From a virus, in IMG/VR virus record IMGVR_UViG_3300027153_000009, positions 1 through 35,928 of that record: a stretch of 35,928 nucleotides of DNA; one strand, given 5' to 3'. A model generated the notes under the pieces. The model was not told the origin of the DNA and ran no database searches. It saw only the letters and a program-made list of their open reading frames with translations. Shown here piece by piece: positions 6,863 to 35,928 of the stretch. How positions within the stretch are numbered: position 1 is the first letter of the stretch; each line of letters begins with the position of its first letter. The position numbers and the translations under genes were made by a program.

Positions 6863-8164
6863 TTACGCAAAAAATTCATCAAGTGATCCAGACTTCATTG
6901 ATTCTGGATGATATTTAATTAGGATTTCATCTCCAAGTTTTTCACGACAATAGTCGTACCACTCGTCAGAAGTCCACATACCTTCGGAAACACCATTCCA
7001 AAGTTTACGTTGCATCGGATGTTCAGGATTCTTGCGACGTTGTTCAACGAAGTCATAACGACAGTTCTCATATTCCCAAGAACCCAACTCAAGCATCTTC
7101 TCACGGAAGTAGCAAACCAAACTGATACGCTCAGAACCTTCTTCACAAACGATAGGAGTGTTGCCATGCATAACATCATGGTTGTTAATCAATAGCAAGT
7201 CGCCTGGACGTGGATTAACAGCAACACGATACTCAGGTGCAATCAAATAACCACCACTGTAACGTCCATCATTTGACAAAGTTAGTAGATTTGAAAGACC
7301 ACTATTTAAATCGCCAACGTCATAGTGAGCAGCAGTTCTGAATGTTTTATTCACAGTAACAGTTGTGAATGGAGTTCCAGGAACTAGGAAACGAGGATCA
7401 ACTTGTCTCGCTGCTTTCATCTGTGCTTCATAACGCTGTGGTAGTAGATCCCTAAAACCATTTGACAATGTTTGTAGGAATGGGTAAGCAAGTGCAAACT
7501 TCTCAGGATTCTTGGCAGTGTAAGATGTTGCACGACCATAAGGAATGCGAGGATAACGATCGAACCAACCTGCGATGCCAGAATAAACTGAGTTAGCGTA
7601 AGTGGTTGCACAAATCAATTCATCAGCAACAAAGTTTGCTTCTTTAATTTGTTCTTGTCGTGGAAGTGTACGCACTTTCTCAACCCACTGATCGAAATTA
7701 AAATTGGTTGACTTAGTTCTTTCAATCGACCAAACATTATTGCGATTAGATGGAGTAGGTGGTTTACCCTTATAGCGTTTGATAATATCTTCTACAGGAT
7801 CTCCTGCAAGACCAGAGTATGGGTCAAGGAAGTATTCAACCATCTCAGATTCATACTCAGTAACCCATTCACGATTACCCAACTTCTCACCACGTGGACC
7901 TGCTGCTGCGCCACGATTCTGTGTTTCAGTTGCAGCTTCACGAAGACCTGCATACGCTTGGTCTTGTTGTTCTTTGGTGAAGAAGTTCTTACGGAACTTC
8001 AATACAATCCTGTCTTCATTGATAGGATCTTCACCATAAGGTGCTGGCATATAAACATCAGTATCTTCTTCGATAAGATGGTCGTAATGATTCTCGTCAA
8101 CGAATTGACCAATCAAATGTTTACAATCAATCTTTTTATCAGCGACAATAACTTTAACTGTCAT
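6863..8164 (-). CDS. TET/JBP-family 2OG-Fe(II) dioxygenase (DNA base hydroxylase)
   Basis: 433 aa. The C-terminal half is a clear TET/JBP dioxygenase: VNKTFRTAAH (residues 271-280), H280-Y-D282 as HxD iron ligands, a GG-containing loop (304-305), R-P-G-D before a strand, distal His H333 in VMHGN, and R346 in RISLVCYF for 2-oxoglutarate. The family oxidises 5-methylcytosine (TET, phage enzymes) or thymine (kinetoplastid JBP, the first step to base J). Residues 1-260 are a separate region without a motif known to me. The protein ends in SLDEFFA, nearly the same as the polymerase tail SLEDFFG, suggesting binding to the sliding clamp. Followed by a glycosyltransferase. AGGAG Shine-Dalgarno before the ATG at 8164. 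Confidence 0.88.
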   Translation of the reverse strand: MTVKVIVADKKIDCKHLIGQFVDENHYDHLIEEDTDVYMPAPYGEDPINEDRIVLKFRKNFFTKEQQDQAYAGLREAATETQNRGAAAGPRGEKLGNREWVTEYESEMVEYFLDPYSGLAGDPVEDIIKRYKGKPPTPSNRNNVWSIERTKSTNFNFDQWVEKVRTLPRQEQIKEANFVADELICATTYANSVYSGIAGWFDRYPRIPYGRATSYTAKNPEKFALAYPFLQTLSNGFRDLLPQRYEAQMKAARQVDPRFLVPGTPFTTVTVNKTFRTAAHYDVGDLNSGLSNLLTLSNDGRYSGGYLIAPEYRVAVNPRPGDLLLINNHDVMHGNTPIVCEEGSERISLVCYFREKMLELGSWEYENCRYDFVEQRRKNPEHPMQRKLWNGVSEGMWTSDEWYDYCREKLGDEILIKYHPESMKSGSLDEFFA

Positions 8165-9855: not shown

Positions 9856-10923
9856 TTATTCTTCATCATCAATCGCAGCAAGTTCTGCATCGATATCTTC
9901 ATCTTTAAGGATATCTGTTGAACCTACCTGATATTTGTTTTTAACAAACTCAATGAAAGACTTTTGCATAAGTACTGGCATCCAGAAGTCTTTAGTATCT
10001 GTATCTTTCAGGCGATACTTCTTATCTTCAATAACACCATCTGCATCTACTTTACTATACCAACCATTACTTGGCTTGACAACATGCCCAGACTCGAGTG
10101 CGATATCAAGTAAGCCAGACCAACGGCTAATACCCCCATCATGATATACAGTAACAGGAATCTTAGATTTTTCACGCACATAACGAGATTTCTCCACATT
10201 GATAATAAAATTATATCCAACAACTTCAGTCCCTTCTTTTTCTTGTTGACGACCAAGAATGTATACATTATCGGCAGAGTACATGGCACCAGTTCCACCA
10301 CCGACAATAGGTTTGGGGAACATACCGATCTCCATATATGTATGATTAACAACAACCAATGGAATATCTTTAAGGTTCAGGTGTGGTGTAATCATACGGA
10401 ACAATGACTTCATCTGTTTGGCACGACTCATATCAGCAACAGATTTGCCATCAAGTGCATCTTCTACTTCCTTCTTAGACGCAAGATTACCAATAGAATC
10501 AATAACAATAATAAGATGGTCGCCACGTTCAACTCCTTGTAGCTGTTGCATGATGTCAAACTTCAACTGCTCTACGTCAGTAAGTGGTGTATGGATAACA
10601 CGCTCGGTATCAATACCGAAAGAATCAAAGTATGCTTGAGGTGTGCCGAACTCTGAGTCGTAGAAAAGCAACGCAGCATCGGGGTACTTGTCCATATAAG
10701 ACTTAGCCATTAGCAAACTGAATGCTGTCTTGAAGTGTTTACTTGGTCCAGCCCACATTGTGATACCTGGAGTCAAACCACCATCAAGACGACCAGACAA
10801 TGCAATATTGATTGCTGGGACAGTGGTAGGAATCATATCCTTCTTTGTGAAGAACTTTGATTGTGATAGAATAGCAGAATCTTTAATCGTACTATTCTTG
10901 CGAATTTTATCTAGTATACTCAT
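9856..10923 (-). CDS. uvsX: UvsX, RecA-like recombinase
   Basis: Strand-exchange protein for recombination-dependent replication and repair. 355 aa (T4 UvsX 391). The Walker A site is GPSKHFKT, the distinctive UvsX form; Walker B is LIIVIDSI; the DNA-binding loop region follows near residues 205-215. The C-terminus is strongly acidic (DIDAELAAIDDEE), as in RecA-type proteins where it tunes DNA binding. It has its own promoter (10944-10972) and an AGGAG Shine-Dalgarno, so it can be made independently of gp43. Confidence 0.95.
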   Translation of the reverse strand: MSILDKIRKNSTIKDSAILSQSKFFTKKDMIPTTVPAINIALSGRLDGGLTPGITMWAGPSKHFKTAFSLLMAKSYMDKYPDAALLFYDSEFGTPQAYFDSFGIDTERVIHTPLTDVEQLKFDIMQQLQGVERGDHLIIVIDSIGNLASKKEVEDALDGKSVADMSRAKQMKSLFRMITPHLNLKDIPLVVVNHTYMEIGMFPKPIVGGGTGAMYSADNVYILGRQQEKEGTEVVGYNFIINVEKSRYVREKSKIPVTVYHDGGISRWSGLLDIALESGHVVKPSNGWYSKVDADGVIEDKKYRLKDTDTKDFWMPVLMQKSFIEFVKNKYQVGSTDILKDEDIDAELAAIDDEE

Positions 10924-11522: not shown

Positions 11523-14012
11523 TTATCCAAAGAAATCCTCCAATGATGACTTGGCTTCAACATTCCAACCAATCGGCTGGATTACAGTTTGCATTGCATC
11601 GAGGAATGTCTTTTCAAACTGTGTTTCATAATCAATAAAGTCATGCAAACCAAACTCTTTCGGTAGATTTTGCGGGAATGCGATAACGTCTTCCTGGAAT
11701 GGATTTGGTTTTCTCACATATACAAACTTAACCTTCTCACCCTCTTTAATCAACTGATACTTCTTTTCAAGTCCAAGTTTCTTGACATAATGATTGTAAA
11801 GTAGTGAACCCCTTACATGGATAGGTGTTCCCTTGGTATAGATCGGAGAACCAGCATATGTTCTCAAACCATTTACGCCACGTGGGAAAGCAATATCCTC
11901 TACTGGCATTTGGTTGAATTCTTCACGGAACTTTTCGATATACGAGTGTAAGTCCGCTTGACTGCCCTTGAGAATAACTTCGATCGAATCTTTAAGTTTG
12001 TCACGAATAACAGCAGGTGTACTTGACTTGACCATTTCAAGCCCCATAACTTTGAGTTTCGGTTTAGCATACTGCACTCCTTCAGAATTGTGTACGTTCA
12101 ATATGTATCTTTTCTTGGCAGTCCAGATACCCTTATCGGCAAGAACCTCACGTTTCATAATCATCTTCTGAGAGTATGCGTTCATATACTCACCCAACTT
12201 TTGATACGTTTGGTCAATGAATGGTTGGAAGATCTCTTCGCAAACCTTATCCATATATTTAATTTTCTGGTCGTCAGTTTTACCTTCGCAAACTTTCTCG
12301 ATCAGTTCTTCCAATGTTAGATAGATTGAATCTGTGTCAATGGCGATAACAAAGTCTTTACCTTCTGTCTTCATGACCTTGTTGAGATAACGATTAAACT
12401 CATTTGCCATCCAACGAATCGATAGTTGACCACTGGTAGTAATACCTTCTGCCATGCGAATATCAAAGTAACGGAAATACTGATTACCCATCGCACCATA
12501 AGCAGAGTTGAGAGCAATCTTCATTGCCATCTGCAGGTTGTTCAGTCGACTAATCTCTTTCAGTAGTTCTTTCTTGGACTTGTCGTTCTGATATTCCTGT
12601 TCAACTTTCAGCATCTGCTTCTTGAACTTACTGCGGTCTGAATACATCTTCTCCATCAACTCAGGCATGAACCCTTTGATATCTCTGCGGTAAGTCCAGC
12701 CATTGGCAGTCAACGCAAGATCCCTACGCTTACAATATTCAGTATCAACTTCTTGATTGAGCAGACGTTCAACGTTGCATGAGATCTTCTCACCACTCAA
12801 TGTTTCTGGTGAGATGTTATACTGCATAATCAAGTGAGGATATAGACTGTTCAAGTCAAAAGAAGCAACCCACTTATGCATACCCAGCAATGGGTCTTTA
12901 ACGAAAGCACCTTCAAATGCTTCATTCTTACTGGAACCAACCTTGGTAGGAATGGCGATATGTTTCTTACGCAGGTGATTATAGATGATGGCGTCCCACA
13001 TTCTTACCTGAGAGAATACATCTTCATAGTTAATCTTTGCATTGTATGCCATGGTAAGACACAACTCAATCAGTCGCATCTTATCTTCAAGTTTGTCAAC
13101 CAACTCTACGTCGTGAATGTTATACTCAACGAAGTCTTGCCAGTAATTTGTATAGAAGTCTTTAAATGTATCTCCAGGGTTTTCTTTCTTGGCATCACCA
13201 AGTTCTTCACCTGCGATATAATCTAGACGATAGGACTCTTGCTTTTGATAAGTGAACTTCTTATACAAGTCAAGATAGTCAAGTTGGCTTACACCATGGA
13301 TGTCAAATGAAATTTCTTCGTTACCTTTAACAAAGATCTTTCGTTCATTGATATATCCCCATGGTGAAAGTTTGGCTGCGATTGCTTCGCCAAGTTCACG
13401 CTGAATACGTTTAGTCAAATATGGTACGTCAAAGAATCCAATGTTCCATCCAGTTAGAACATCAGGATAATTCTGTTGCCAGAAAATCATAAACTCTTTG
13501 AGAAGTTGTTGCTCGTCTTTGCAACGGAAGTAAGTAACATCCTTGCGAGTATTTTCAAACTCACGTGTGCCGAAAGTGATAATACTCTTAGATTGAAAGT
13601 CTTTGATTGTGATTAGTAAGATCTCTTCATTCGCCTGTTTGACATCAGGGAATCCATCTTCAACTGCAGTTTCAATGTCGATGGTGAACACTTTAATTTG
13701 TTCCATATCCCAACGAACATCACTCTCATAAGTGTCGCTGATATATTGGTGAACATAGTTAGTGTTTCCGTAGACGTTGAAACCCTGCACTTCTTTGTAA
13801 CGATCAAAGAACTCACGTGTTTCTTTTACAGTTCCAGGTTTAACTTCATCGATAACTTGACCATCGAGTGTGCGCCACTGGCTCTCTGCTTTATTTGATG
13901 TTACATAAAGTGTTGGGTAAAAGTCGATCTTACGTTGAAACGCTCTGCCGTTTTCATAACCTCTGACACACATTTTGTTACCAAAGGGAAATACGTGCGT
14001 ATAAAAAATCAT
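11523..14012 (-). CDS. gp43: DNA polymerase, family B (T4 gp43-like)
   Basis: Replicative polymerase with proofreading. 829 aa (T4 898). Exonuclease motifs: D112-I-E114 (same numbers as in T4), GWNIGFFDVP, and YNIHDVELV. Polymerase motifs: DLNSLYPHLI (A), KIALNSAYGAMGN (B) and DTDSIYL (C), all complete. The C-terminus SLEDFFG is a sliding-clamp-binding tail of the kind that holds T4-type polymerases to gp45. Its start overlaps the preceding gene by 4 bp. A perfect consensus promoter inside the exonuclease gene upstream (14472-14500) could boost its expression. Confidence 0.97.
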   Translation of the reverse strand: MIFYTHVFPFGNKMCVRGYENGRAFQRKIDFYPTLYVTSNKAESQWRTLDGQVIDEVKPGTVKETREFFDRYKEVQGFNVYGNTNYVHQYISDTYESDVRWDMEQIKVFTIDIETAVEDGFPDVKQANEEILLITIKDFQSKSIITFGTREFENTRKDVTYFRCKDEQQLLKEFMIFWQQNYPDVLTGWNIGFFDVPYLTKRIQRELGEAIAAKLSPWGYINERKIFVKGNEEISFDIHGVSQLDYLDLYKKFTYQKQESYRLDYIAGEELGDAKKENPGDTFKDFYTNYWQDFVEYNIHDVELVDKLEDKMRLIELCLTMAYNAKINYEDVFSQVRMWDAIIYNHLRKKHIAIPTKVGSSKNEAFEGAFVKDPLLGMHKWVASFDLNSLYPHLIMQYNISPETLSGEKISCNVERLLNQEVDTEYCKRRDLALTANGWTYRRDIKGFMPELMEKMYSDRSKFKKQMLKVEQEYQNDKSKKELLKEISRLNNLQMAMKIALNSAYGAMGNQYFRYFDIRMAEGITTSGQLSIRWMANEFNRYLNKVMKTEGKDFVIAIDTDSIYLTLEELIEKVCEGKTDDQKIKYMDKVCEEIFQPFIDQTYQKLGEYMNAYSQKMIMKREVLADKGIWTAKKRYILNVHNSEGVQYAKPKLKVMGLEMVKSSTPAVIRDKLKDSIEVILKGSQADLHSYIEKFREEFNQMPVEDIAFPRGVNGLRTYAGSPIYTKGTPIHVRGSLLYNHYVKKLGLEKKYQLIKEGEKVKFVYVRKPNPFQEDVIAFPQNLPKEFGLHDFIDYETQFEKTFLDAMQTVIQPIGWNVEAKSSLEDFFG

Positions 14013-26292: not shown

Positions 26293-26544
26293 TTATGCAA
26301 ACAGACGTGAACCTGCGATCTTGGCTGCAAGACCAACGATACGACGTGATGGTTGACCCATACGATACTTAACAACTTCAGTACCATTTACTACTGCTGG
26401 GTTTGAATAAACACAGTAGCCTTGCTCACGCAAGTTACGAATGGTAGAAGCTGGGTGGGCGATACCGAAAGATGCAGAGATCTGCTTGGCAGTAAACTGC
26501 TTACCTGCTTGTAGGTGCTTCAATAAAAGATTTTGCTTGGACAT
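26293..26544 (-). CDS. Winged helix-turn-helix protein, 83 aa
   Basis: Residues 6-50 form a helix-turn-helix: LLLKHLQAGKQFTAKQISAS, then F-G-I-A-H-P-A-S-T-I-R-N-L-R-E-Q-G as the recognition helix and a wing ending in Y-R-M-G. The C-terminus is basic. A small DNA-binding regulator, perhaps acting on phage promoters. GGAG ribosome site. A strong terminator lies just upstream, so its own promoter must lie between, or it depends on read-through; I see no good -35/-10 there. Confidence 0.82.
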   Translation of the reverse strand: MSKQNLLLKHLQAGKQFTAKQISASFGIAHPASTIRNLREQGYCVYSNPAVVNGTEVVKYRMGQPSRRIVGLAAKIAGSRLFA

Positions 26545-26630: not shown

Positions 26631-27068
26631 TTAAACTTCGATGCCATTCTCACGAAGGATTGCGTTGAAATCTTCAACATCAGCATCGTGAACATTAGAC
26701 TCATCAACAATTTTCTCAAGACGAGTTTTCTTGGGAGCAACTGCTTTAGGAGTCTTAACCTTAATGGCTTTGGGTTGTTTCACTTTAACTGCTTTGGGAG
26801 CAGACTTGGCAGCGACGAAGTCAGAAAGTTCTTTCTCCGATGGCCATGGCATTTGATAAGTACCACGACCTACGATGTTAGTTTTCTGGAGCCACATGGG
26901 GAAACCAAGTTTCTCACCAGTAGAGCCACGCTGTTCTTTCAGAAGAAAGTAACCAGCAAGCAACTCTTTCCAAGTAAGATCTTTCTTAGTCTTATACTGT
27001 GGACATACGTCAAGAATACGCACGCAAAATGCTTTTTGTGCTTTAGACAGATCAGCAAAGTTTTTCAT
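26631..27068 (-). CDS. Small protein sharing the N-terminal module of the CobS-like ATPase
   Basis: 145 aa from ATG 27068 (AAAGGTG ribosome site; the upstream TTG is unlikely). Residues 10-75 match the N-terminus of the AAA ATPase encoded just upstream: Q-K-A-F, then P-x-x-K-T, a K/R-x-L-L helix, P-x-W-L, and V-G-R-G-x-Y. After it comes a basic repeat region with four copies of a K-A-x-K/V-K-x-P-K-like unit (residues ~92-118), then an acidic end. It may compete with or guide the ATPase, for example in contacting the same partner or DNA. Own promoter 43 bp upstream. Confidence 0.78.
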   Translation of the reverse strand: MKNFADLSKAQKAFCVRILDVCPQYKTKKDLTWKELLAGYFLLKEQRGSTGEKLGFPMWLQKTNIVGRGTYQMPWPSEKELSDFVAAKSAPKAVKVKQPKAIKVKTPKAVAPKKTRLEKIVDESNVHDADVEDFNAILRENGIEV

Positions 27069-27110
27069 AATATATACACCTTTCAAAGTTAATAATCAAC
27101 TACAATAACA

Positions 27111-27139
27111 ATTCTACCTTAAACCTGATTATTTGTCAA
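27111..27139 (-). promoter_or_regulatory. Sigma70-type promoter, TTGACA-17-TAGAAT
   Basis: Minus strand: TTGACA at 27139-27134, 17 bp beginning AATAATCA, TAGAAT at 27116-27111. It begins 3 bp behind the stop codon of the CobS-like gene and serves the gene starting at 27068. Confidence 0.78.
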
Positions 27140-27141
27140 GT

Positions 27142-28311
27142 TTAAAATGGGATTTCCTGAGCAGGTTCTTGCACAACAGGTGCTTCCACTGCTACAGGTT
27201 CTGGTTGCGGGTTTGCAACTTTATCATACAGGTCAATAAATGCAGCTTTCGTTGCAGCATCAAAACGATTGCAACAAAGTTGGACTGCTTTCTCCCTGTT
27301 CTTGAAGATTGCAAATGCACGAACGATATGGATCATACGACGAGTCGTAATTGTTTCATCCACACCACCATCCTCGAAAGTGCGACGGATAGCATCAGCC
27401 CACTTTACAAGGGTCTCTGCAAACTCTTCGTCAATACACGAATAAGTTTCCATGAGATTCTTGATAATCTTAATCTCAACTTTTGCAGCTGGGTATTCCT
27501 GTTCAAACGTAACAGCGAATCGCTCCAAGAATGCTTCGTTCAATACGTTGGTACCGATATAACGACCATCGTCACTACCCTTACCCTTAGTGTTCGCAGT
27601 TGCAATAACATTGAATCCAGGAGCAGGAACAATCATCTCATTCTTGAGTTTGAAATAGTAAGGTTTACCCTCGAGAATCGGTTGCAAGCACAACAGAGTG
27701 TTGGCAGAGCCAGCATCAATTTCGTCAAGCAACAGAGTAGTACCAGTACGCATAGCGATTAGAACTGGTCCTTCAACAATTTCTACGTTACCATTCTCCA
27801 ATGTTTTGGAGCCGATAAGTTGTTCTTCGTCAGTCATCATGTTTAGGTTAACACGAATGAGTGGCTTTTTGTATTTCGCACAGATCTGCTCAACCATGGT
27901 AGACTTACCGTTACCAGTTGGACCAGAAATATATGCAGGGTAGAAAATACCAGACTTGATAATAACTTCCAAGTCGGAGTAGCTACCGAAAGGGACGAAG
28001 TTTGAATCCTTCTTAGGAATCAATGATGCAGTGTTTGTGTAATCAACCACGAAAGACTCTACAGGTTCAGATTTAGTTTTTACCACAGTATTTCCAACTA
28101 CAACAGTAGAAGGTTTACCACCATTAATTGAATATAAACCACGACCAACAACATCTTGCATTAGCCACAATGGGTGGTAGTCGATTTTGTTTTTGGCACG
28201 AACTTCCAGCAATTGCTTGCGTGTAACTGTACCAGTAGTTTTTGTATCAGGGAACATCTCAAAGAGTTTATCTTCGAAGAATGCTTTTTGTTGCTCAGTA
28301 ATTTTTGCCAT
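27142..28311 (-). CDS. cobS: CobS-like/MoxR-type AAA+ ATPase
   Basis: 389 aa from ATG 28311. Residues ~1-75 are a small module ending in V-V-G-R-G-L-Y, also found in the next gene. The AAA+ core has Walker A G-P-T-G-N-G-K-S-T, Walker B T-L-L-L-D-E-I-D, and sensor 1 V-I-A-T-A-N-T. It belongs to the CobS/MoxR group, whose members act with von Willebrand partners to insert metals or remodel proteins; the neighbour at 28598 is such a partner. CobS-like proteins are common in marine T4-like phages, where a role in cobalamin has been suggested but is unproven. The last residues are Pro/Val/Glu-rich. Confidence 0.88.
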   Translation of the reverse strand: MAKITEQQKAFFEDKLFEMFPDTKTTGTVTRKQLLEVRAKNKIDYHPLWLMQDVVGRGLYSINGGKPSTVVVGNTVVKTKSEPVESFVVDYTNTASLIPKKDSNFVPFGSYSDLEVIIKSGIFYPAYISGPTGNGKSTMVEQICAKYKKPLIRVNLNMMTDEEQLIGSKTLENGNVEIVEGPVLIAMRTGTTLLLDEIDAGSANTLLCLQPILEGKPYYFKLKNEMIVPAPGFNVIATANTKGKGSDDGRYIGTNVLNEAFLERFAVTFEQEYPAAKVEIKIIKNLMETYSCIDEEFAETLVKWADAIRRTFEDGGVDETITTRRMIHIVRAFAIFKNREKAVQLCCNRFDAATKAAFIDLYDKVANPQPEPVAVEAPVVQEPAQEIPF

Positions 28312-28338
28312 CACTCACTCACTTTCATAATAAAAAAT

Positions 28339-28488
28339 TCAAACACTAGACCAAATTTCAAGAACCCCACCATCAGGATAATCAGCAGGTAACACAACAG
28401 ACCGAAGGTAATCATAAGCCAGACCGAAATTAGCGAAACCTTCAGAAACAACAATTTTATTCACAGTATCAATAACAAAGAACTTCAT
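28339..28488 (-). CDS. Small protein, 49 aa
   Basis: ATG at 28488 with an AAAGGA ribosome site, 26 bp behind the -10 of the promoter at 28514-28542. The peptide starts MKFFVIDTVNKIVVSEGF and ends in W-S-S-V; strand-helix-strand layout. First gene of the CobS-like transcript. Function unknown. Confidence 0.68.
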   Translation of the reverse strand: MKFFVIDTVNKIVVSEGFANFGLAYDYLRSVVLPADYPDGGVLEIWSSV

Positions 28489-28513
28489 AACAATCCTTTC
28501 ACTCTATACAATA

Positions 28514-28542
28514 ATTATACGTCTTTTTTGAATTATTGTAAA
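28514..28542 (-). promoter_or_regulatory. Sigma70-type promoter, TTTACA-17-TATAAT
   Basis: Minus strand: TTTACA at 28542-28537 preceded by TTGC, 17 bp beginning ATAATTCA, TATAAT at 28519-28514. It separates the CobT-like gene from the CobS-like gene's transcript. Confidence 0.87.
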
Positions 28543-28553
28543 GCAATATTTTC

Positions 28554-28597
28554 ACCCTCTATTCCAGAGGGTTTGCAATCCCCTACAATCCGTAGGG
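28554..28597 (-). terminator. Two tandem stem-loops before a promoter
   Basis: On the minus strand CCCTAC/GTAGGG with a 5-nt loop (28581-28597), directly at the stop codon of the CobT-like gene, then ACCCTCT/AGAGGGT with a 5-nt loop (28554-28572), followed by an A/T-rich stretch and the promoter. The same pair in the same order is found at 19457-19509. Confidence 0.75.
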
Positions 28598-30823
28598 TTA
28601 TGCAACATAGCCAATAAAGTTATTCAGAAGGACTCGGCTAGTCTTCTTGACATTCAAAAACTTACCAAAGTTTCTTGCGATCGCCTTTGCATTCGCATCT
28701 GCTTTCACATCCAACTCACCCTCTTGAATTCTTGTAGAAGATTGGGGAATCAGGAACAAGTCATCACGACCAGTATTCTTGATTGATGCAAATCCTTTGA
28801 CACGGAAATCTTTTCTCCATTCTTCGATTAACATAGCATCGCTACCTCTATACTCGGGTAGATTTGCTTGCATTGCACCACGCAAGTCACGACGATGATT
28901 CTGACAGATATGAAAGCCCAGTACTGAAATGTTGTAACGATCTTTCATCATTTGCAGAATAGTTTTCGATTGATGGTTACCATACTTATTAAACTCATAA
29001 GTCTTTTGAGTAATTTCATCACGGATATAATGTTTCTGTTTGATACGTTTGTATTCAGCACCAACAATTTCAGTTCGCACATCATCCAAACCACGATGAT
29101 ATCCAACAGGAGCCAAAGAATGACCTTCGCCATCGGTAAGAGTAATGAACGTCATCTTCTCGATATTGTTGTTTTTAACAAACGAACCAACGTTATTGTA
29201 GCACCATACCAATGCTTCGTTAAGTGGAGTGCCACTGGTTTCATATCCTTTGTTCCACTGAAATTTCCAATGCAACAAACGACGTGCCATTGAATTGAAT
29301 TCGCTGGTAGTCATTTTGTTACTGAACAATTCAAGAAGATTGAAACAATTATTGGCAGCACCGATTAATTTTTCGGTTTCAGCTTTAGCACGTTTCGCTG
29401 TTTCAAATTCACGCTCATATGTATATCGTTGTGAACGTGCTTCGTCAGAAGTACAAGCATTCTCACGAACGTAATCATAGTACGCAGATGTAAAAGCATA
29501 AACACGATAAGGAATCTGAACACGATTGCAGAACATAGCCAAATTAACAACCTGCTTAATTGTATCTTGCAAAACTTCATTCATAGAACCAGACCAGTCA
29601 ACCAGCATAATCATACCATGGTTTTTACCCTCTGGTATAGTGGTCACACGTTTAAAGATATCGTCTTTGAGTTTGTATGCATAAACTTTCTTCATATCCA
29701 ATGAACCGATCTTGGATACTTGAGCACGTTTATACATAGTTGCACTCTTGCGCATCTCGAATTCTTTGACCAAATAGTTTACTGCACGACTGGAGTCAAT
29801 CTTAAATTGTTCGAAGTCTTTCTTCTCGGCAAGTTCTTTCTTTGTCAAATAATCTGGCTCAGCATAACGTGTGTATCTTTCTGCACGACCATCTGTATCA
29901 TCTAGCCACTGCTCTGGAGATTTTGTTTCAGAAAGAATCTTTTTAAATGGAACAACAACTTCATCCATATAATCAGTATCAAACTTCCAGTAGTTATACT
30001 CAGTGGTATCGTCAGCGAGATCGCTTAGTTTACTGGAAAAAATACGTTCAGTTTTAGACTCAAGATCTTCATCATCATTATTGTTTGCTTGTTCGTCAGT
30101 TTCTTTGGACTTTGTGCTCTTGACAGTTTTTTCAATCTCTTCCATATCGTCAAGTTCTTCTTCGTCAAAGTCTTCGTCATAATCGATGTCAAAGTCAGAT
30201 TCAATCGGATCTTCTTCGTCTTCATCGTTTGATTGCAAACCCAATTCCTGCATTTGTTTCTTGCGCTCTTCCAGTTGTTTTCTGGAGAATGCGTATACAT
30301 CATTGGCTAGTGTGATAACATCGTCAATAGTTTCGGTGCGTTCAGCACGTTCAACAAAAATCTTTTCTTCAGATGTAAATTTTACACCACAAAATACACC
30401 TGCTTTAAAGTAGAGATTAATTTTGTCGATAAGGTTCAATTCAGCGAATGATTGAATCTGACCAACACCAAAAAAGTCACGATCGTTGAGTTGTTTGTAG
30501 CCATCACTCATACGCTTACGTAGACCTGGATATTTACGTTTGATTAGTTTCTCGATACGCACGTCTTCGATGACGTTTAGATAACTACGAATCTTTGGGT
30601 TATCTTCGATCGGTTTCATATATGCGTCAGTCGTGTATAGCGCATGACCAACTTCATGACCGATCAACATATCTTCAATTTCGGGGGACATTTCTTTCCA
30701 CATAGGAAGAGTCAATACACGACTCTTAATATCGAAAGATGCAGTGCGAGTTCTTGCACGAACAACAGAAAGATTTTCTGTAGCAAGAAGTCTTGCGGAT
30801 AGATCAGATGCTTTCATTTCCAT
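28598..30823 (-). CDS. cobT: CobT-like protein: HEXXH peptidase-like domain plus von Willebrand A domain
   Basis: 741 aa. Residues 56-60 H-E-V-G-H form an HEXXH zinc motif, followed by N-V-I-E-D-V-R-I-E (83-91) where a third ligand is expected. A very acidic linker spans 198-230. A von Willebrand A domain begins near 403 with a MIDAS motif D409-W-S-G-S-M. In cobaltochelatase, CobT-type subunits bind the CobS ATPase through such a domain; other MoxR-VWA pairs work as chaperones. The likely partner is the AAA ATPase encoded next. The metallopeptidase-like head suggests protein or metal-site processing. Whether it cleaves peptides is not known. Confidence 0.86.
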   Translation of the reverse strand: MEMKASDLSARLLATENLSVVRARTRTASFDIKSRVLTLPMWKEMSPEIEDMLIGHEVGHALYTTDAYMKPIEDNPKIRSYLNVIEDVRIEKLIKRKYPGLRKRMSDGYKQLNDRDFFGVGQIQSFAELNLIDKINLYFKAGVFCGVKFTSEEKIFVERAERTETIDDVITLANDVYAFSRKQLEERKKQMQELGLQSNDEDEEDPIESDFDIDYDEDFDEEELDDMEEIEKTVKSTKSKETDEQANNNDDEDLESKTERIFSSKLSDLADDTTEYNYWKFDTDYMDEVVVPFKKILSETKSPEQWLDDTDGRAERYTRYAEPDYLTKKELAEKKDFEQFKIDSSRAVNYLVKEFEMRKSATMYKRAQVSKIGSLDMKKVYAYKLKDDIFKRVTTIPEGKNHGMIMLVDWSGSMNEVLQDTIKQVVNLAMFCNRVQIPYRVYAFTSAYYDYVRENACTSDEARSQRYTYEREFETAKRAKAETEKLIGAANNCFNLLELFSNKMTTSEFNSMARRLLHWKFQWNKGYETSGTPLNEALVWCYNNVGSFVKNNNIEKMTFITLTDGEGHSLAPVGYHRGLDDVRTEIVGAEYKRIKQKHYIRDEITQKTYEFNKYGNHQSKTILQMMKDRYNISVLGFHICQNHRRDLRGAMQANLPEYRGSDAMLIEEWRKDFRVKGFASIKNTGRDDLFLIPQSSTRIQEGELDVKADANAKAIARNFGKFLNVKKTSRVLLNNFIGYVA

Positions 30824-30829
30824 AATATA

Positions 30830-31003
30830 TTATTCTCCAAATGCCATATCAAATTCAAACTCAGTCAATGCTTGCTCAACCACATCACGATTTGCCAACT
30901 TTATCGGTAGGATGTGTTCAAACTCACACACATTACCAATATCATACTTGTGGCAAAGACTTGCCAATTCAAAGTCATCAAAACTACTCCACTGGTTTTG
31001 CAT
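30830..31003 (-). CDS. Small acidic protein, 57 aa
   Basis: ATG at 31003 with a TGGAGAAA ribosome site (the ATG at 31015 overlaps that site and is less likely). The peptide is acidic with two Cys and two His (A-S-L-C-H-K-Y-D, V-C-E-F-E-H), a possible small metal site, and an acidic end. First gene of the CobT-like transcript. Function unknown. Confidence 0.68.
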   Translation of the reverse strand: MQNQWSSFDDFELASLCHKYDIGNVCEFEHILPIKLANRDVVEQALTEFEFDMAFGE

Positions 31004-31026
31004 AATTTTCTCCATTCTATAGTAGA

Positions 31027-31055
31027 ATTATGCCCGAGTTTTGATTATTTGTAAA
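31027..31055 (-). promoter_or_regulatory. Sigma70-type promoter, TTTACA-17-CATAAT
   Basis: Minus strand: TTTACA at 31055-31050 preceded by TGC, 17 bp beginning AATAATCA, CATAAT at 31032-31027. It drives the small acidic gene and the CobT-like gene. Confidence 0.78.
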
Positions 31056-31112: not shown

Positions 31113-32825
31113 TTAGGCTATAACGCTGAAGTCGTTACGTTTCTCAAACTTAATGACAGACCTAAACTTCTCAAAGAGCTGGTCTCCTTTGTGAGAGATA
31201 ACAAAGATATTTGACTTTTCACCAAACTGGTTCATCAGGTTAAGGAAATAATCAGTTCCAGCTGTGTCTAATGAAGAATCAAAAATCTCGTCAAGCAACA
31301 ATAGGTTTGTATTGACTGAGTTCTTCATTTTTGCAATTTGTCGCCAAGTGAAAAGTATTGCAAGGTCAATCCTCATTTTTTCACCTTCCGAAAAACTTGC
31401 GTAAGTAAAGTCATCACGATAACGTGATTTAATAACTTCGTTAAATGCTTCGTCAAGTTCAAAGTGAATGTAAGTATCCATCGCATTTAGATACTTGTTG
31501 ATCAACTTATTCATGGCAGGTAGATACTCACGAATAATCGCTGTCTTGATACCAGTGTCCTTCAATAAAGCAGAAGCAACTTCTTCAATGTTACGCTGTT
31601 CTTGTAAAGATGTTTTAGTATTAATCTTAACAATGGCTTCAGTGGCAAGTTCTTTTAACTTGGCTTTCTCTTCATCGATGTTAGTTGTGTCAGATTTAGA
31701 CCCCTCAATCTCAGCTTGGAGTTCACCGATTTGTTTGTTGAGTAGGGTGATCGTACTGTTTCTTGTAGATAACTCAATGTTCTTATCGGTAATCGCTTCT
31801 GCCACTTCATTAATCTTTTTGAGTTTTTCATTAAGTCCAGAGAGGATCGTGTCGAGTTCATCAATCTTTGAGTTGTTGTCCATGAGTTTCGCATTAAGAT
31901 CTTTGACAATGGTCTCTTTGTATTCTTCAGCGATATCTTGGTTACACGACGGACATACATCATGTTCATTAAAAAACTCTGTATGGTGTTCGCAAGTTTC
32001 GACTTTCTGGAGCAACTTGGATTTAATTGATTTTGCTTTTTCAAACTCTTGGTTGATTGTTTCCTTCTCAGAGATCTTCCCTTTAAGTGTTGATATTTCT
32101 CCGAGAATGACATCAATCTCCGACTGGATTCTGCTAATTTCTCCAGAATGGGATTCGACTTTGGCTTGGAAATTTTTAATCGTTTCTGTCTTCGCATCGC
32201 TAATAGTTTTAATAATACTCGTTTGGCTTTCAACTTTCGTCTTAGCGTTAGCAATCTCCGATTCAATCTTTGCGATCGCATCTTTAGTCTCCTGTGCTTT
32301 TTCTTTTAATAATGTATTCATGGTAGAGAAAATGCGAATGTCAAGAATGTCTTCGATAACTTCTCTACGTTGTCCCGATGGTAGTTGCATGAATGGAACA
32401 AAAGAAGCACTACCAAGAATAACTACTTGTGTAAAAGTTTTATAATTTAATTTAAGGATTTGCTGTTCGAGACTTTTTTGATAATCACGTGAAGCAGCAT
32501 CCTGATTAATCAAAGTTCCATTCTGCCAGATCTCAAAGATGTTTGGTTTGATACCACGAACAACTTTATATTCAGCTGGACCAATATTAAACTCGATAGT
32601 AACTAAACAGTTCTTACCATTGATGCTGTTAATCAACTGATTCTTATTGATGTTACGAAATGGTTTGCCAAACAACGAAAAGCACAATGCATCTAAGATT
32701 GTGCTTTTTCCTTCACCATTCTTACCAATGATTAAAGTAGTTGGTGATTTATTCAATAATACTTTGTTTGCTGCGTTACCTGTTGAAAGAAAGTTCTTCC
32801 ACTCTACACTTTTAAATACAATCAT
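31113..32825 (-). CDS. gp46: Recombination nuclease ATPase subunit (T4 gp46-like, Rad50/SbcC)
   Basis: 570 aa (T4 gp46 560). Walker A G-K-N-G-E-G-K-S-T near residue 35; two coiled-coil arms (about 170-270 and 300-390) on either side of the zinc hook C-P-S-C; the ABC signature F-S-E-G-E-K-M-R; Walker B L-L-L-L-D-E-I-F-D. With gp47 it processes DNA ends for recombination and host DNA breakdown. Start overlaps the preceding gene by 4 bp. Confidence 0.95.
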   Translation of the reverse strand: MIVFKSVEWKNFLSTGNAANKVLLNKSPTTLIIGKNGEGKSTILDALCFSLFGKPFRNINKNQLINSINGKNCLVTIEFNIGPAEYKVVRGIKPNIFEIWQNGTLINQDAASRDYQKSLEQQILKLNYKTFTQVVILGSASFVPFMQLPSGQRREVIEDILDIRIFSTMNTLLKEKAQETKDAIAKIESEIANAKTKVESQTSIIKTISDAKTETIKNFQAKVESHSGEISRIQSEIDVILGEISTLKGKISEKETINQEFEKAKSIKSKLLQKVETCEHHTEFFNEHDVCPSCNQDIAEEYKETIVKDLNAKLMDNNSKIDELDTILSGLNEKLKKINEVAEAITDKNIELSTRNSTITLLNKQIGELQAEIEGSKSDTTNIDEEKAKLKELATEAIVKINTKTSLQEQRNIEEVASALLKDTGIKTAIIREYLPAMNKLINKYLNAMDTYIHFELDEAFNEVIKSRYRDDFTYASFSEGEKMRIDLAILFTWRQIAKMKNSVNTNLLLLDEIFDSSLDTAGTDYFLNLMNQFGEKSNIFVISHKGDQLFEKFRSVIKFEKRNDFSVIA

Positions 32826-33130
32826 TCACTCTTCCATTTCATACCCATAGACTTATAAATGAATCTCATTATGAAGTTGGGTTTCTTTTTAGAAATAACA
32901 GTAATTGGCATAGCATCTACATTAATAGTAAAAGATGGCGAGCCAAGATTATTTGAGATAGTGGTCCAACCTACAGTACCACCATTACCAATAGACAAAC
33001 ATAATCCAGAACCAGAAATAACGGATCCAACATTTTTGCTAGCAGCATATTCAACACATGGTGTAAAATCTAAATCAAGTGGAATCTGTTCTGTTAATGG
33101 AAAGAAATACTGGATCTCAAGTTGTTGCAT
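32822..33130 (-). CDS. Conserved protein between gp47 and gp46, 102 aa
   Basis: Starts MQQLEIQYFFPLTEQIPLDL and is strand-rich, with a Gly/Ser/Thr-rich middle and a basic amphipathic C-terminus (K-K-K-P-N-F-I-M-R-F-I-Y-K). I recall a similar protein at the same place in marine T4-like phages, with no known function. Overlaps gp47 (one base) and gp46 (4 bp), so it is made together with the nuclease complex and may be an accessory of it. Confidence 0.8.
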   Translation of the reverse strand: MQQLEIQYFFPLTEQIPLDLDFTPCVEYAASKNVGSVISGSGLCLSIGNGGTVGWTTISNNLGSPSFTINVDAMPITVISKKKPNFIMRFIYKSMGMKWKSE

Positions 33131-34185
33131 TAGACCACCTCTACGTTAATGGCTTCCGTATATAATGTTTTCATAAATGTTTTAACATGCTCTTTATCAA
33201 CGTCAGTTTCAACGCTGTCAATATAATTAGATAAAACACTTAGCGTATCTTCAAGATTGATATCTTCACCAACCTCTCCGTCTTCAAACTCAGACATGTC
33301 CTCAATAATTTTAATTTCATGACATCCTTTATTATACAGCTTTTGAATAAATTTGTCAAATTTATAAAAGTCAGTTTTATTTACAACAACTAACTTAACA
33401 AACTTATCGGCTAGATCGAGAGAGTCGAGGTCGATGGGGTCGGATCCTTTGTCGGAATACTCAACTCTGGTGAACATTGTATAAGGATTTGGGATAAACT
33501 CGAGTTCTCGATTATCAAGGCAGAACAAATGGAACCCTCTTGGATCATTATAATCTTGCCAAGTAAGTTCATAGGGATTACCGAGGTAATGAATGTGACC
33601 ATTGCCACTGCGGTGATGATAATGCCCACTAAACACGAGGTCAAACTTATCAAACAAACTTGCTTCCAATCCTTCATGAGATTGCATACCTTTATACATA
33701 GCAAAGCCAGCAATTTCAAAATGCCCCATACAGAGGTCTGCTTGCGTTTGCTTTAATTGATCGAGTGACTCTTGATAGTTATCTGGACAAATCCATGGCA
33801 TCATACATATCGGGATACCACCAACAAAGATTGTTTGCGGATCATCAATAACTTCGATGTTGGAGTATTCACGCAAAAGTAAATCTGGTGAATTGACTTC
33901 ATTGGTATTTTTATAGTATGTGTCGTGATTACCTGCTAACATATAAACTCTTATACCACGTTCTTGTAATTTATCAAAGAACATTTCCTTTGCTCTTTGT
34001 AGAGCATAGAAGTTTACATATTTGCGTCTATCAAATGTATCACCAAGAATAAGAACAGTGTCAATACCAGATGAATCAATAGTAGGAAAGAAAGTATTGT
34101 CATAGAATTTTTGAAAGAAGTCTAGGAAAGCAATACTGTCATTACGAGCACCAAAGTGTTGGTCAGTAATAATTGCTACTCGCAT
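33130..34185 (-). CDS. gp47: Recombination nuclease subunit (T4 gp47-like, Mre11/SbcD)
   Basis: 351 aa (T4 gp47 339). Metallophosphoesterase motifs in order: D-Q-H-F-G (I), L-G-D-T-F-D-R (II), A-G-N-H-D (III), M-G-H-F-E and F-S-G-H-Y-H-H-R (IV/V), all intact. Forms the Mn-dependent nuclease with gp46. The coding sequence contains a perfect sigma70 promoter (33331-33359). Confidence 0.95.
   Translation of the reverse strand: MRVAIITDQHFGARNDSIAFLDFFQKFYDNTFFPTIDSSGIDTVLILGDTFDRRKYVNFYALQRAKEMFFDKLQERGIRVYMLAGNHDTYYKNTNEVNSPDLLLREYSNIEVIDDPQTIFVGGIPICMMPWICPDNYQESLDQLKQTQADLCMGHFEIAGFAMYKGMQSHEGLEASLFDKFDLVFSGHYHHRSGNGHIHYLGNPYELTWQDYNDPRGFHLFCLDNRELEFIPNPYTMFTRVEYSDKGSDPIDLDSLDLADKFVKLVVVNKTDFYKFDKFIQKLYNKGCHEIKIIEDMSEFEDGEVGEDINLEDTLSVLSNYIDSVETDVDKEHVKTFMKTLYTEAINVEVV
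33331..33359 (-). promoter_or_regulatory. Intragenic consensus promoter, TTGACA-17-TATAAT
   Basis: Minus strand: TTGACA at 33359-33354, 17 bp, TATAAT at 33336-33331, inside the C-terminal part of gp47 and reading into the 102-aa gene and gp46. Full match to consensus. Confidence 0.7.
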
Positions 34186-34322: not shown

Positions 34323-35521
34323 CAGACAAACCCTACCTTTCTTTCAGGTGTTTTATGTTGTTGTTCATTAAATACTTCAGCGATAGAATACTTATTAGTT
34401 TCTTTACCACGTGGACGTGCAGGAAGGTTTACTCCAAGTCGTTTGGCAAGTTTGTTAGCATGCTCAACATTCAATTCATCGAATGTAAGAATATCGAAGC
34501 AACGTCCTGGACGAATCAATGCAGAGTCGATATCACGGATGCTTGGTAGGTTAGTGGAGAAAATCATCTTCTTACCTTTAGTGGTTACGAGACCATCACC
34601 TACGTTAAGAAAACGATGCATCATTGTATTACCATCACTACGTGACTTTAGGAATGCGTCGCTATCTTCAAGTACCATCACTTCAGTATCATCCTCAATA
34701 AAACGAGCAAAGAAACCATCTTTCTCGAGGATACCTGCATCATACGTTACGATTGCAGATGCGTTACGATAAGCCAATAAGCCACGGATAAATGTAGTCT
34801 TACCAGTTCCTGGGGGACCAATCAACAATAAGATGTTCGCAGAAGATTCCATGTAACGATCATAGTAGTCACCAAGAGTTTCATCTCCAAGGAATGGATA
34901 CATTTCTTCAACAGGAAGACGATCACGATTCAAAGGTACATTGACTGAGTTACCATCACTACCATAGATCCACTCAACATAAGATGTAACAACATCAAAA
35001 TTTGTTGCTACCTCAGCAATGATACAATCTGCGAATTCAGCGTCACCGTATGCACGAACAGTAGTTGAGTTGGAGTTTACATCAAACTTGATAAAGTTTT
35101 CAGTTTCTTCTGCGATAATAAACCCAGAAGAAGAATTGCTTTGAACATAAAGCATATCGCTATAATGTTCTTCTGCCCAATTAGCCCAGCGTTCACGATT
35201 ACATAGAACAGTAGTCTCTCTTTGAACAGTCGTCTCACCAGCTTCGATGCGACGTTTCATAATTTCTGATACGATTAGGTCTTCAACATCTGAAACACCT
35301 AAGAAAATTTTGTTGTCACTATTACTCATAATTTCTTTCAAATTAAATTGATTATCTGTCGCATCCCAAATGTGACCACGCAATAATCTATCTTTGCGTT
35401 TTCTTGCTCTAACTTTTGAACGACCTTTTCTGACTAGTGCTGGAGCTGGTCTAAACTCAACGTTACCATCACCCAACTGACGGATCAAATCTCTAATACT
35501 TCTGTGCGCTGTCATCTTCAT
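34322..35521 (-). CDS. AAA+ ATPase, about 399 aa
   Basis: Start set at ATG 35521, behind AGGTG and overlapping the gp55 end. Residues 1-65 are basic (K-G-R-S-K-V-R-A-R-K-R-K-D-R) and may bind DNA; a middle region of about 140 residues follows; then the AAA core with Walker A G-P-P-G-T-G-K-T-T, Walker B V-M-V-L-E-D-S-D, sensor 1 S-T-N-L, and D-S-A-L-I-R-P-G-R-C with the arginine fingers. This core is like the BCS1/FtsH-type AAA clade. It is placed between the late sigma factor and the recombination nuclease. Role unknown; remodelling of a phage or host protein complex is likely. An internal ATG near residue 64 is a less likely start. Confidence 0.82.
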   Translation of the reverse strand: MKMTAHRSIRDLIRQLGDGNVEFRPAPALVRKGRSKVRARKRKDRLLRGHIWDATDNQFNLKEIMSNSDNKIFLGVSDVEDLIVSEIMKRRIEAGETTVQRETTVLCNRERWANWAEEHYSDMLYVQSNSSSGFIIAEETENFIKFDVNSNSTTVRAYGDAEFADCIIAEVATNFDVVTSYVEWIYGSDGNSVNVPLNRDRLPVEEMYPFLGDETLGDYYDRYMESSANILLLIGPPGTGKTTFIRGLLAYRNASAIVTYDAGILEKDGFFARFIEDDTEVMVLEDSDAFLKSRSDGNTMMHRFLNVGDGLVTTKGKKMIFSTNLPSIRDIDSALIRPGRCFDILTFDELNVEHANKLAKRLGVNLPARPRGKETNKYSIAEVFNEQQHKTPERKVGFV

Positions 35522-35928
35522 TATCACCTATAAAATCATCAAGTGTTTGTTTCTTCTTTTTATTTTTTTCTTTTTTCTTTGTTATAAACGAATCATCGAA
35601 GTTGCTATTACTTTGCATAAAATCAAGATATGCATTATGATAATGTCCGTCTTCATCTTGCTCTTGTAATTCAAATGCATCAAAAGCCATATCTTGAATC
35701 AATTTATTTTTGATATACGAATGTTTCTTCTCCTTCCCTATGCGACGTAGGAAAGCGAAGTAAATAATTTGTGTGAAATATGCGAACGGATTGCTCGACT
35801 TCTCTGGATCAAAATTATCAAAGTAATTGATACAATTCTCAATACCATCGAGAATCATATCATCTTTGTAAGTATAATTAATAAAGTTTGGTTTATATGA
35901 TAAATGCGTTGCAATTTTAAGAATGCAC
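35493..35928 (-). CDS. gp55: Late-transcription sigma factor (T4 gp55-like), N-terminus outside window
   Basis: The frame is open to the right edge, so the first part is missing. Visible are K-I-A-T-H-L-S-Y-K-P-N-F-I-N-Y and the core-polymerase-binding block S-N-P-F-A-Y-F-T-Q-I-I-Y-F-A-F-L-R-R-I, the hallmarks of gp55, which directs host RNA polymerase to TATAAATA-type promoters. Near the end T-L-D-D-F-I-G resembles the clamp-binding tail of the polymerase; T4 gp55 is known to bind gp45 by its C-terminus. A Lys-rich stretch precedes it. The last 35 bp overlap the AAA ATPase gene. Confidence 0.93.
   Translation of the reverse strand, partial: CILKIATHLSYKPNFINYTYKDDMILDGIENCINYFDNFDPEKSSNPFAYFTQIIYFAFLRRIGKEKKHSYIKNKLIQDMAFDAFELQEQDEDGHYHNAYLDFMQSNSNFDDSFITKKKEKNKKKKQTLDDFIGDNEDDSAQKY

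Follow-up and report, generated by a model that had tools for sequence, protein, structure and literature searches.

A stand-alone copy of an ATPase N-terminal module accompanies the CobT/CobS-like gene pair, with a metallopeptidase-like CobT head, in a group of uncultured T4-like phages

Marine T4-like cyanophages have cobS among their core genes (PMC3037559), and this gene is commonly taken for an auxiliary metabolic gene of vitamin B12. Together with its neighbor, the cyanophage "peptidase" gene, it was named the viral cobST cluster in 2021 and proposed to hijack host CobN (PMC8651126). In this study, we examined such a pair in the virus record IMGVR_UViG_3300027153_000009 (35.9 kb; the complete stretch of 35,928 nt is called the window here), where a third gene for a small protein follows the pair. 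An earlier note on this DNA, made from its letters alone, had described three minus-strand genes for a 741-aa protein with an HEXXH motif and a von Willebrand (VWA) domain, a 389-aa AAA+ ATPase, and a 145-aa protein, and open reading frames (ORFs) and profile searches confirm this set. While the pair itself is already known from cyanophages ("peptidase"/cobS) and as viral CobST, the third protein, consisting of a winged-helix-like module, a variable Lys/Pro linker, and a conserved C-terminal peptide, and the E[IV]PF C terminus of the CobS-like ATPase are new.

Direct homologs of the pair (phrog_459 plus phrog_249) are found in cyanophages and Pelagibacter phage HTVC008M in identical order and in the same replication-gene neighborhood, and a similar pair is reported in the literature for DLP6 and haloarchaeal tailed viruses. 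In contrast to the trio described here, the examined examples elsewhere have neither a stand-alone module gene nor a CobS tip resembling the tail of single-stranded DNA-binding protein (SSB). NorQ/NorD, CbbQ/CbbO, and RavA/ViaA likewise combine a MoxR-class AAA+ ATPase with a partner made of an N-terminal domain, a disordered linker, and a VWA domain with a metal ion-dependent adhesion site (MIDAS), whereas the HEXXH head, the ATPase N-terminal module, and the third protein set the phage side apart. NorQD structures revealed a MoxR ring with a VWA finger in its pore and an N-terminal domain that is tethered by a long linker and levers the target (PMC13036017). No HEXXH is mentioned for NorQD in PMC13036017 or PMC9976466, NorD being compared here by description and not by sequence. 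The CobT-like protein of the window is laid out as a metallopeptidase-like head, an acidic linker, and a C-terminal VWA domain, whose MIDAS residues D409, S411, S413, T532, and D564 are unchanged across 33 aligned relatives. The CobS-like ATPase has conserved Walker motifs (GxxGNGK and LLDEID), matches CbbQ_C (E = 1.5e-5) in addition to AAA_5, and finds midasin (E = 2.8e-63) and CobS (E = 1.8e-32) in the PDB.

On profile evidence, the first ~75 residues of the third protein are homologous to the N-terminal domain of the ATPase. BLASTP aligned the two window proteins over 71 aa with 32% identity (E = 2e-5), and an hhalign comparison of two independently built profiles, one of small proteins (n = 26) and one of ATPase N termini (n = 25), gave a probability of 96.7 and E = 3.6e-10 for a common region, QKAF...P-x-WL...VGRG-x-Y. 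The earlier note had seen the small protein as a repeat of this ATPase block and had set a profile comparison as the test that could refute it; the likeness held. A hidden Markov model (HMM) of the ATPase module matched only small proteins and CobS among the ORFs of 94 loci. When the small-protein profile was run against seven large records carrying the trio (127 to 171 kb), it found the small gene in all seven, and its sole other match was CobS, in five.

AlphaFold2 modeled residues 1 to 80 of the third protein with high confidence (predicted local distance difference test [pLDDT] of 91 to 96) and the topology H-H-E-H-H-H-E-E. Matches to PDB folds include the winged-helix domains of ORC1, MCM8, and cullin, but are weak, with no probability above 0.41. 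Searching a viral model library with the module returned an uncharacterized phage protein (E = 4.5e-7) and, at rank 3, a phage AAA ATPase (probability of 1.00, E = 5e-3), in agreement with the sequence result. These models suggest a small winged-helix domain. The earlier note had read the module as a docking unit; being winged-helix-like, it could attach to DNA in addition to docking proteins.

The C-terminal peptide of the third protein is acidic, with the consensus RL-x-KI...DVEDFN-x-ILRENGI-x-V, and an HMM of this tail matched no other ORF of the fetched loci. The Lys/Pro region that had been pointed out between module and tail is indeed present in the window, with a net charge of +10 over 31 residues, but its length ranges from 0 to ~70 aa and it is missing in several relatives, so it is not a core feature; divergent relatives have lost the Lys linker and kept a shorter tail. 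Two phages carry tandem stand-alone module genes behind CobS, each without a Lys-rich linker and without the full tail. That the acidic CobT linker pairs electrostatically with the Lys/Pro linker was rejected as a general rule because the latter is absent from several trio members and because CobT-like proteins of pelagiphages and cyanophages have acidic linkers without a third gene. No family in Pfam, PHROG, NCBIfam, or PADLOC covers the third protein (scattered weak hits concerned one to five members only), its gene has no match in cultured phages, and tblastn against 50,697 phage records gave no credible match, a Serratia phage hit at E = 0.8 being ignored. Comparison with PADLOC defense systems gave only weak P-loop matches. 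A scan of a genome collection for cellular relatives yielded seven hits; since these lie mostly in contigs of metagenome-assembled genomes that may be phage contamination, no cellular ancestor is claimed.

The third gene is tightly linked to CobS. Among 131 distinct CobS followed by 900 nt or more of sequence, 102 have it 0 to 183 nt downstream, and in a high-scoring clade it lies immediately downstream without exception (92/92), which bears out, within this clade, the co-occurrence that the earlier note had put up for checking. The remaining 29 CobS are cyanophage-type or from HTVC008M. Part of the CobS sample had been retrieved with the small protein itself as the query; the 80 loci retrieved with CobS alone (L002 to L081) likewise carry the small gene. 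The trio is carried by a group of uncultured T4-like phages, and the CobT/CobS pair was found by tblastn in hundreds of cyanophage records. An HTH_39-like gene, which had gone unremarked before, as had the C-terminal peptide of the third protein and the CobS C-terminal tip, is a fourth conserved member of the cassette: in 102 of 108 distinct cases, no more than 193 nt separate it from the small gene. HTVC008M also has a counterpart of it near CobS (L095:10526-10861).

The HEXXH motif proved universal in the CobT-like relatives. It occurs in all 128 distinct phage proteins with complete N termini, cyanophages included, each time as part of an HEXXH...ED head motif, but in none of 21 genuine bacterial CobT, which were found via PF06213 and all come from the single bacterial order to which a Rhodobacteraceae genome belongs. 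Across 70 aligned heads, H56, E57, H60, N83, E86, D87, R89, and E91 are invariant. The AlphaFold2 model of the head is confident (pLDDT of 90.7, predicted template modeling score of 0.85) and comprises three strands, the HEXXH helix, and the helix bearing E86/D87. Its nearest solved folds, although not significant as matches, are jannalysin, abylysin, selecase, ArdC, IrrE/PprI, and myroilysin, i.e., HEXXH-type metallopeptidases or their relatives. The solved N-terminal domain of CobT (21vu, 9uka) was not among the matches. As in minigluzincins, ArdC, and IrrE, the HEXXH helix of the model is followed by a Glu helix behind a small sheet, whereas the phage head is fused to a linker and a VWA domain and paired with a MoxR ring. 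This suggests that the phage head resembles HEXXH metallopeptidases, with catalysis being putative. The AlphaFold models proposed earlier for head and module came out confident.

Bacterial SSB tails end in DDDIPF (consensus in PMC5872125), and CobS of the trio clade likewise closes with a flexible linker and then [DE]E[IV]PF, except that here the tail is carried by an ATPase. EIPF or EVPF forms the C terminus of 92 of 95 trio-clade CobS ORFs. The fetched loci contain 5,613 ORFs of 80 aa or longer, of which 157 end in this way, and each of these is CobS; as many loci overlap or are close relatives, these are copies and not independent events. By analogy, the tip would dock the ATPase to SSB partners. 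A bacterial-type phage SSB was considered as the origin of the tip and rejected, with no PF00436 SSB in nine records; the SSB of the trio phages is gp32, which has no IPF end.

Phage CobS probably had the N-terminal module ancestrally, with the third gene as a stand-alone copy, because the module of HTVC008M CobS links the small protein to the N terminus of cyanophage CobS. The latter is a divergent, HTH-like form that connects to the trio module only through HTVC008M as an intermediate; direct profile comparison gave E values of 0.001 to 0.0035 (control, 0.012), which are not significant alone.

The published reading takes viral CobST for a genuine cobaltochelatase motor, which hijacks host CobN and raises cobalamin production (PMC8651126). 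The phage pair does share the AAA+ core of CobS and the acidic linker plus VWA layout of CobT with cobaltochelatase (TIGR01650/TIGR01651, PF06213), the likeness to solved CobS is clear in the PDB search, and the VWA part aligns with CobT at a whole-profile E of 4.3e-5. Both equivalog cut-offs are missed, however: the ATPase reaches 90 bits against TIGR01650, where 558.55 is required, and the CobT-like protein gives no hit with TIGR01651, for which a genuine CobT control scored 786 against a cut-off of 759. PF06213, the CobT N-terminal domain, has no match in the window and was found in 31/31 genomes of one bacterial order, and the HEXXH motif is confined to the phage side of the comparison. 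The ATPase N-terminal module is phage specific as well. CobN is absent from all eight phage records searched; a host CobN might be used instead. The same eight records all encode NrdB and a large subunit of ribonucleotide reductase (RNR), i.e., a class I enzyme that is B12 independent. Since HEXXH is present in all phage partners and in no genuine CobT, CobN is missing, the RNR is class I, and the pair sits among replication genes, the B12 reading is doubtful. These comparisons disfavor a cobaltochelatase role, which we regard as very improbable, in line with the earlier argument that the HEXXH head speaks against cobalt insertion, and the published reading loses much of its support. The RNR large subunit of trio phages (L269:892-2691 [-] and L270) measures only ~600 aa, ends in TCLACEG, and gives a split profile match; the cyanophage form has ~775 aa.

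The homologies, conservation, gene linkage, and motifs lead us to propose a MoxR/VWA remodeling machine with a metallopeptidase-like head that works in replication or recombination and in which the small protein serves as adaptor or competitor. Its assembly, activity, target, and docking are predictions, and we see the chances of the proposal as evenly balanced. The CobS-like protein would form a MoxR-class AAA+ ring with the CobT-like protein as its VWA partner; the latter has the three-part layout of NorQD. As in NorQ/NorD, the VWA domain would be seated within or upon the ring, gripping the target via its MIDAS, and ATP hydrolysis would move the target. With a tethered N-terminal head carrying a complete HEXXH plus Glu/Asp site, remodeling would probably be linked with cleavage, or with metal binding at the least. 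In the trio clade, the SSB-tail-like peptide of CobS may direct the ATPase to proteins of replication or recombination. The third protein, in which a flexible linker joins a free module to a conserved C-terminal peptide, would bind the ligand of the ATPase module (DNA or protein) and serve as an extra, untethered copy of its recognition module, either as adaptor or as competitor.

Several observations weigh against this proposal. Cyanophages and pelagiphage HTVC008M have the CobT/CobS pair without the third gene, which marks the third protein as an addition of one clade and not as obligate; linkage of the three genes is strict within the trio clade, for which the three-part machine of the earlier note is a prediction. 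Neither cyanophages nor HTVC008M have the SSB-like tip on their CobS. The best fold match of the head, jannalysin, has a probability of 1.00 but an E value of 0.073, and the metal site could serve metal handling instead of cleavage. With regard to the third-protein tail, two gp32 tails rank first among the tails of other proteins in two genomes, but with 24.1 and 23.9 versus 23.4; as this signal is barely above background, descent from the tail of phage gp32 (SSB) by copying is not claimed. Overall, the observation made in the earlier note is confirmed and its interpretation partly supported.

Metal handling is a common role of MoxR/VWA pairs in the form of metal insertion (PMC13036017, PMC9976466), and the head might correspondingly hold a metal and load a phage metalloenzyme, such as the di-iron NrdB or an Fe(II)/2-oxoglutarate (2OG) oxygenase. 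NrdB is encoded in 8/8 phage records, and 2OG-Fe oxygenases are annotated close to the pair in HTVC008M, P-RSM4, and ACG-2014f. We nevertheless judge a NorQD-like insertion chaperone improbable, as metal storage would not require the invariant, catalytic-type Glu57 and as class I RNR is not known to depend on a metal chaperone in most phages. Equally improbable in our view is a purely structural head, a noncatalytic relic of the kind seen in genuine CobT: genuine CobT is functional without the motif, and common descent may underlie the likeness of the two heads, even though hhalign found no significant similarity between them (E = 0.26), but the two His, the Glu, and E86/D87 are fully invariant across the aligned heads.

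The third protein might also be an independent DNA-binding protein, histone-like or regulatory, that shares only ancestry with the CobS module. The winged-helix-like model with its weak ORC1, MCM8, and cullin matches, the basic Lys/Ala/Pro linker, the separate promoter, and the neighboring HTH_39 gene agree with this; its fixed position right behind CobS in all clade members, its acidic conserved C-terminal peptide, and the dispensability of the basic linker do not, and we consider it unlikely. The remodeling machine proposed above can be drawn more sharply, at a price in confidence. AAA+-assisted proteases such as Wss1 act on DNA-protein crosslinks, and we use them as an analogy only, with no claim of membership. 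A phage metalloprotease driven by an AAA+ ring and coupled to replication might have its HEXXH head cut what the CobS ring unfolds, namely DNA-bound or crosslinked proteins, as Wss1/SPRTN do with Cdc48, and might be recruited by winged-helix modules and the SSB-tail mimic, with the third protein as dedicated adaptor. We offer this version as speculative and rather unlikely; the Wss1 analogy also draws on PMC5557861.

The genes around the trio lie on the minus strand in a T4-like replication/recombination order: gp55, an AAA protein, gp47, gp46, a 61-aa ORF, CobT-like, a 49-aa ORF, CobS-like, the small protein, and HTH_39 (Table 1). The backbone of gp55, gp47, gp46, peptidase, CobS, clamp, and clamp loader is shared with HTVC008M and the cyanophages P-RSM4 and ACG-2014f, where the pair is adjacent within the replication/recombination cluster and clamp and clamp loader are nearby. 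Each of the three genes had been credited with its own promoter cassette, and a strong sigma-70-like site does precede the 61-aa ORF plus CobT, the 49-aa ORF plus CobS, and the small gene. Nine strong sites (at most one mismatch, TTKACA...TATAAT type) were found in the window, all on the coding strand. Weak sites are no more numerous in total than in shuffled sequence, so only the strong ones are informative; these suggest host-polymerase promoters distributed over the replication cluster. Elsewhere in the window, an 829-aa protein (11523-14012, -) ends in SLEDFFG, a 433-aa protein (6863-8164, -) ends in SLDEFFA, and gp55 has TLDDFIGDN close to its C terminus; we take these tails to resemble the clamp-binding tails of T4.

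Table 1. Positions of the features discussed (window coordinates unless a related locus is named)
Feature	Position	Strand	Evidence
CobT-like VWA protein, 741 aa	28598-30823	-	ORF; phrog_459 "peptidase" over residues 10-741, E 1.6e-185
CobT-like head, residues 1-195	30239-30823	-	AlphaFold2 model
HEVGH (HEXXH), residues 56-60, within helix 47-63	30644-30658	-	alignment; helix from AlphaFold2
E86-D87 on helix 76-97, candidate third metal ligand (gluzincin-like)	30563-30568	-	conservation; ligand role predicted
Acidic low-complexity linker of CobT-like protein	30044-30238	-	net charge -31 across residues 190-300
MIDAS DxSxS (D409, S411, S413)	29585-29599	-	invariant alignment columns
MIDAS-completing T532	29228-29230	-	invariant alignment column
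MIDAS-completing D564	29132-29134	-	invariant alignment column
CobS-like MoxR-class AAA+ ATPase, 389 aa	27142-28311	-	AAA_5 E 8e-19; phrog_249 over residues 82-368, E 1.8e-104
ATPase N-terminal module, residues 1-66	28114-28311	-	alignment; hhalign to small protein, E 3.6e-10
ATPase C-terminal tip QEIPF, SSB-Ct-like, behind variable Pro/acidic linker	27145-27159	-	
Third (small) protein, 145 aa, stand-alone module	26631-27068	-	ORF; without known family
Module of third protein, residues 1-75, winged-helix-like	26844-27068	-	hhalign E 3.6e-10; AlphaFold2
Lys/Ala/Pro-rich linker of third protein, residues 84-114	26727-26819	-	alignments; net +10 across 31 residues
Conserved C-terminal peptide of third protein, TRLEKIVDES..DVEDFNAILRENGIEV	26634-26726	-	conserved alignment columns
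HTH_39 winged-helix protein, fourth conserved cassette gene	26293-26544	-	PF14090 E 2.1e-6
49-aa ORF between strong promoter and CobS	28339-28488	-	
61-aa ORF between strong promoter and CobT	30830-31015	-	without PHROG match
gp46	31113-32825	-	
gp47	33130-34185	-	
Late sigma factor gp55	35493-35858	-	
Sigma-70-like promoter, 5' of third gene	27110-27139	-	11/12 match
Sigma-70-like promoter, 5' of 49-aa ORF and CobS	28513-28542	-	11/12 match
Sigma-70-like promoter, 5' of 61-aa ORF and CobT	31026-31055	-	10/12 match
Nine strong sigma-70-like sites	9771, 10943, 14471, 16897, 19352, 27110, 28513, 31026, 33330	-	
Tandem stand-alone module copies, first phage	L130:9972-10337 and 10438-10785		
Tandem stand-alone module copies, second phage	L131:9960-10325 and 10425-10772		

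The comparison presented here bears on how the phage cobS gene is understood. If the metalloprotease reading is true, the cobS/"peptidase" core genes of marine T4-like phages would not be B12 auxiliary metabolic genes. Independently of that reading, the third protein, which all members of one phage clade encode and family libraries lack, may provide a handle on the ligand of the ATPase N-terminal module.

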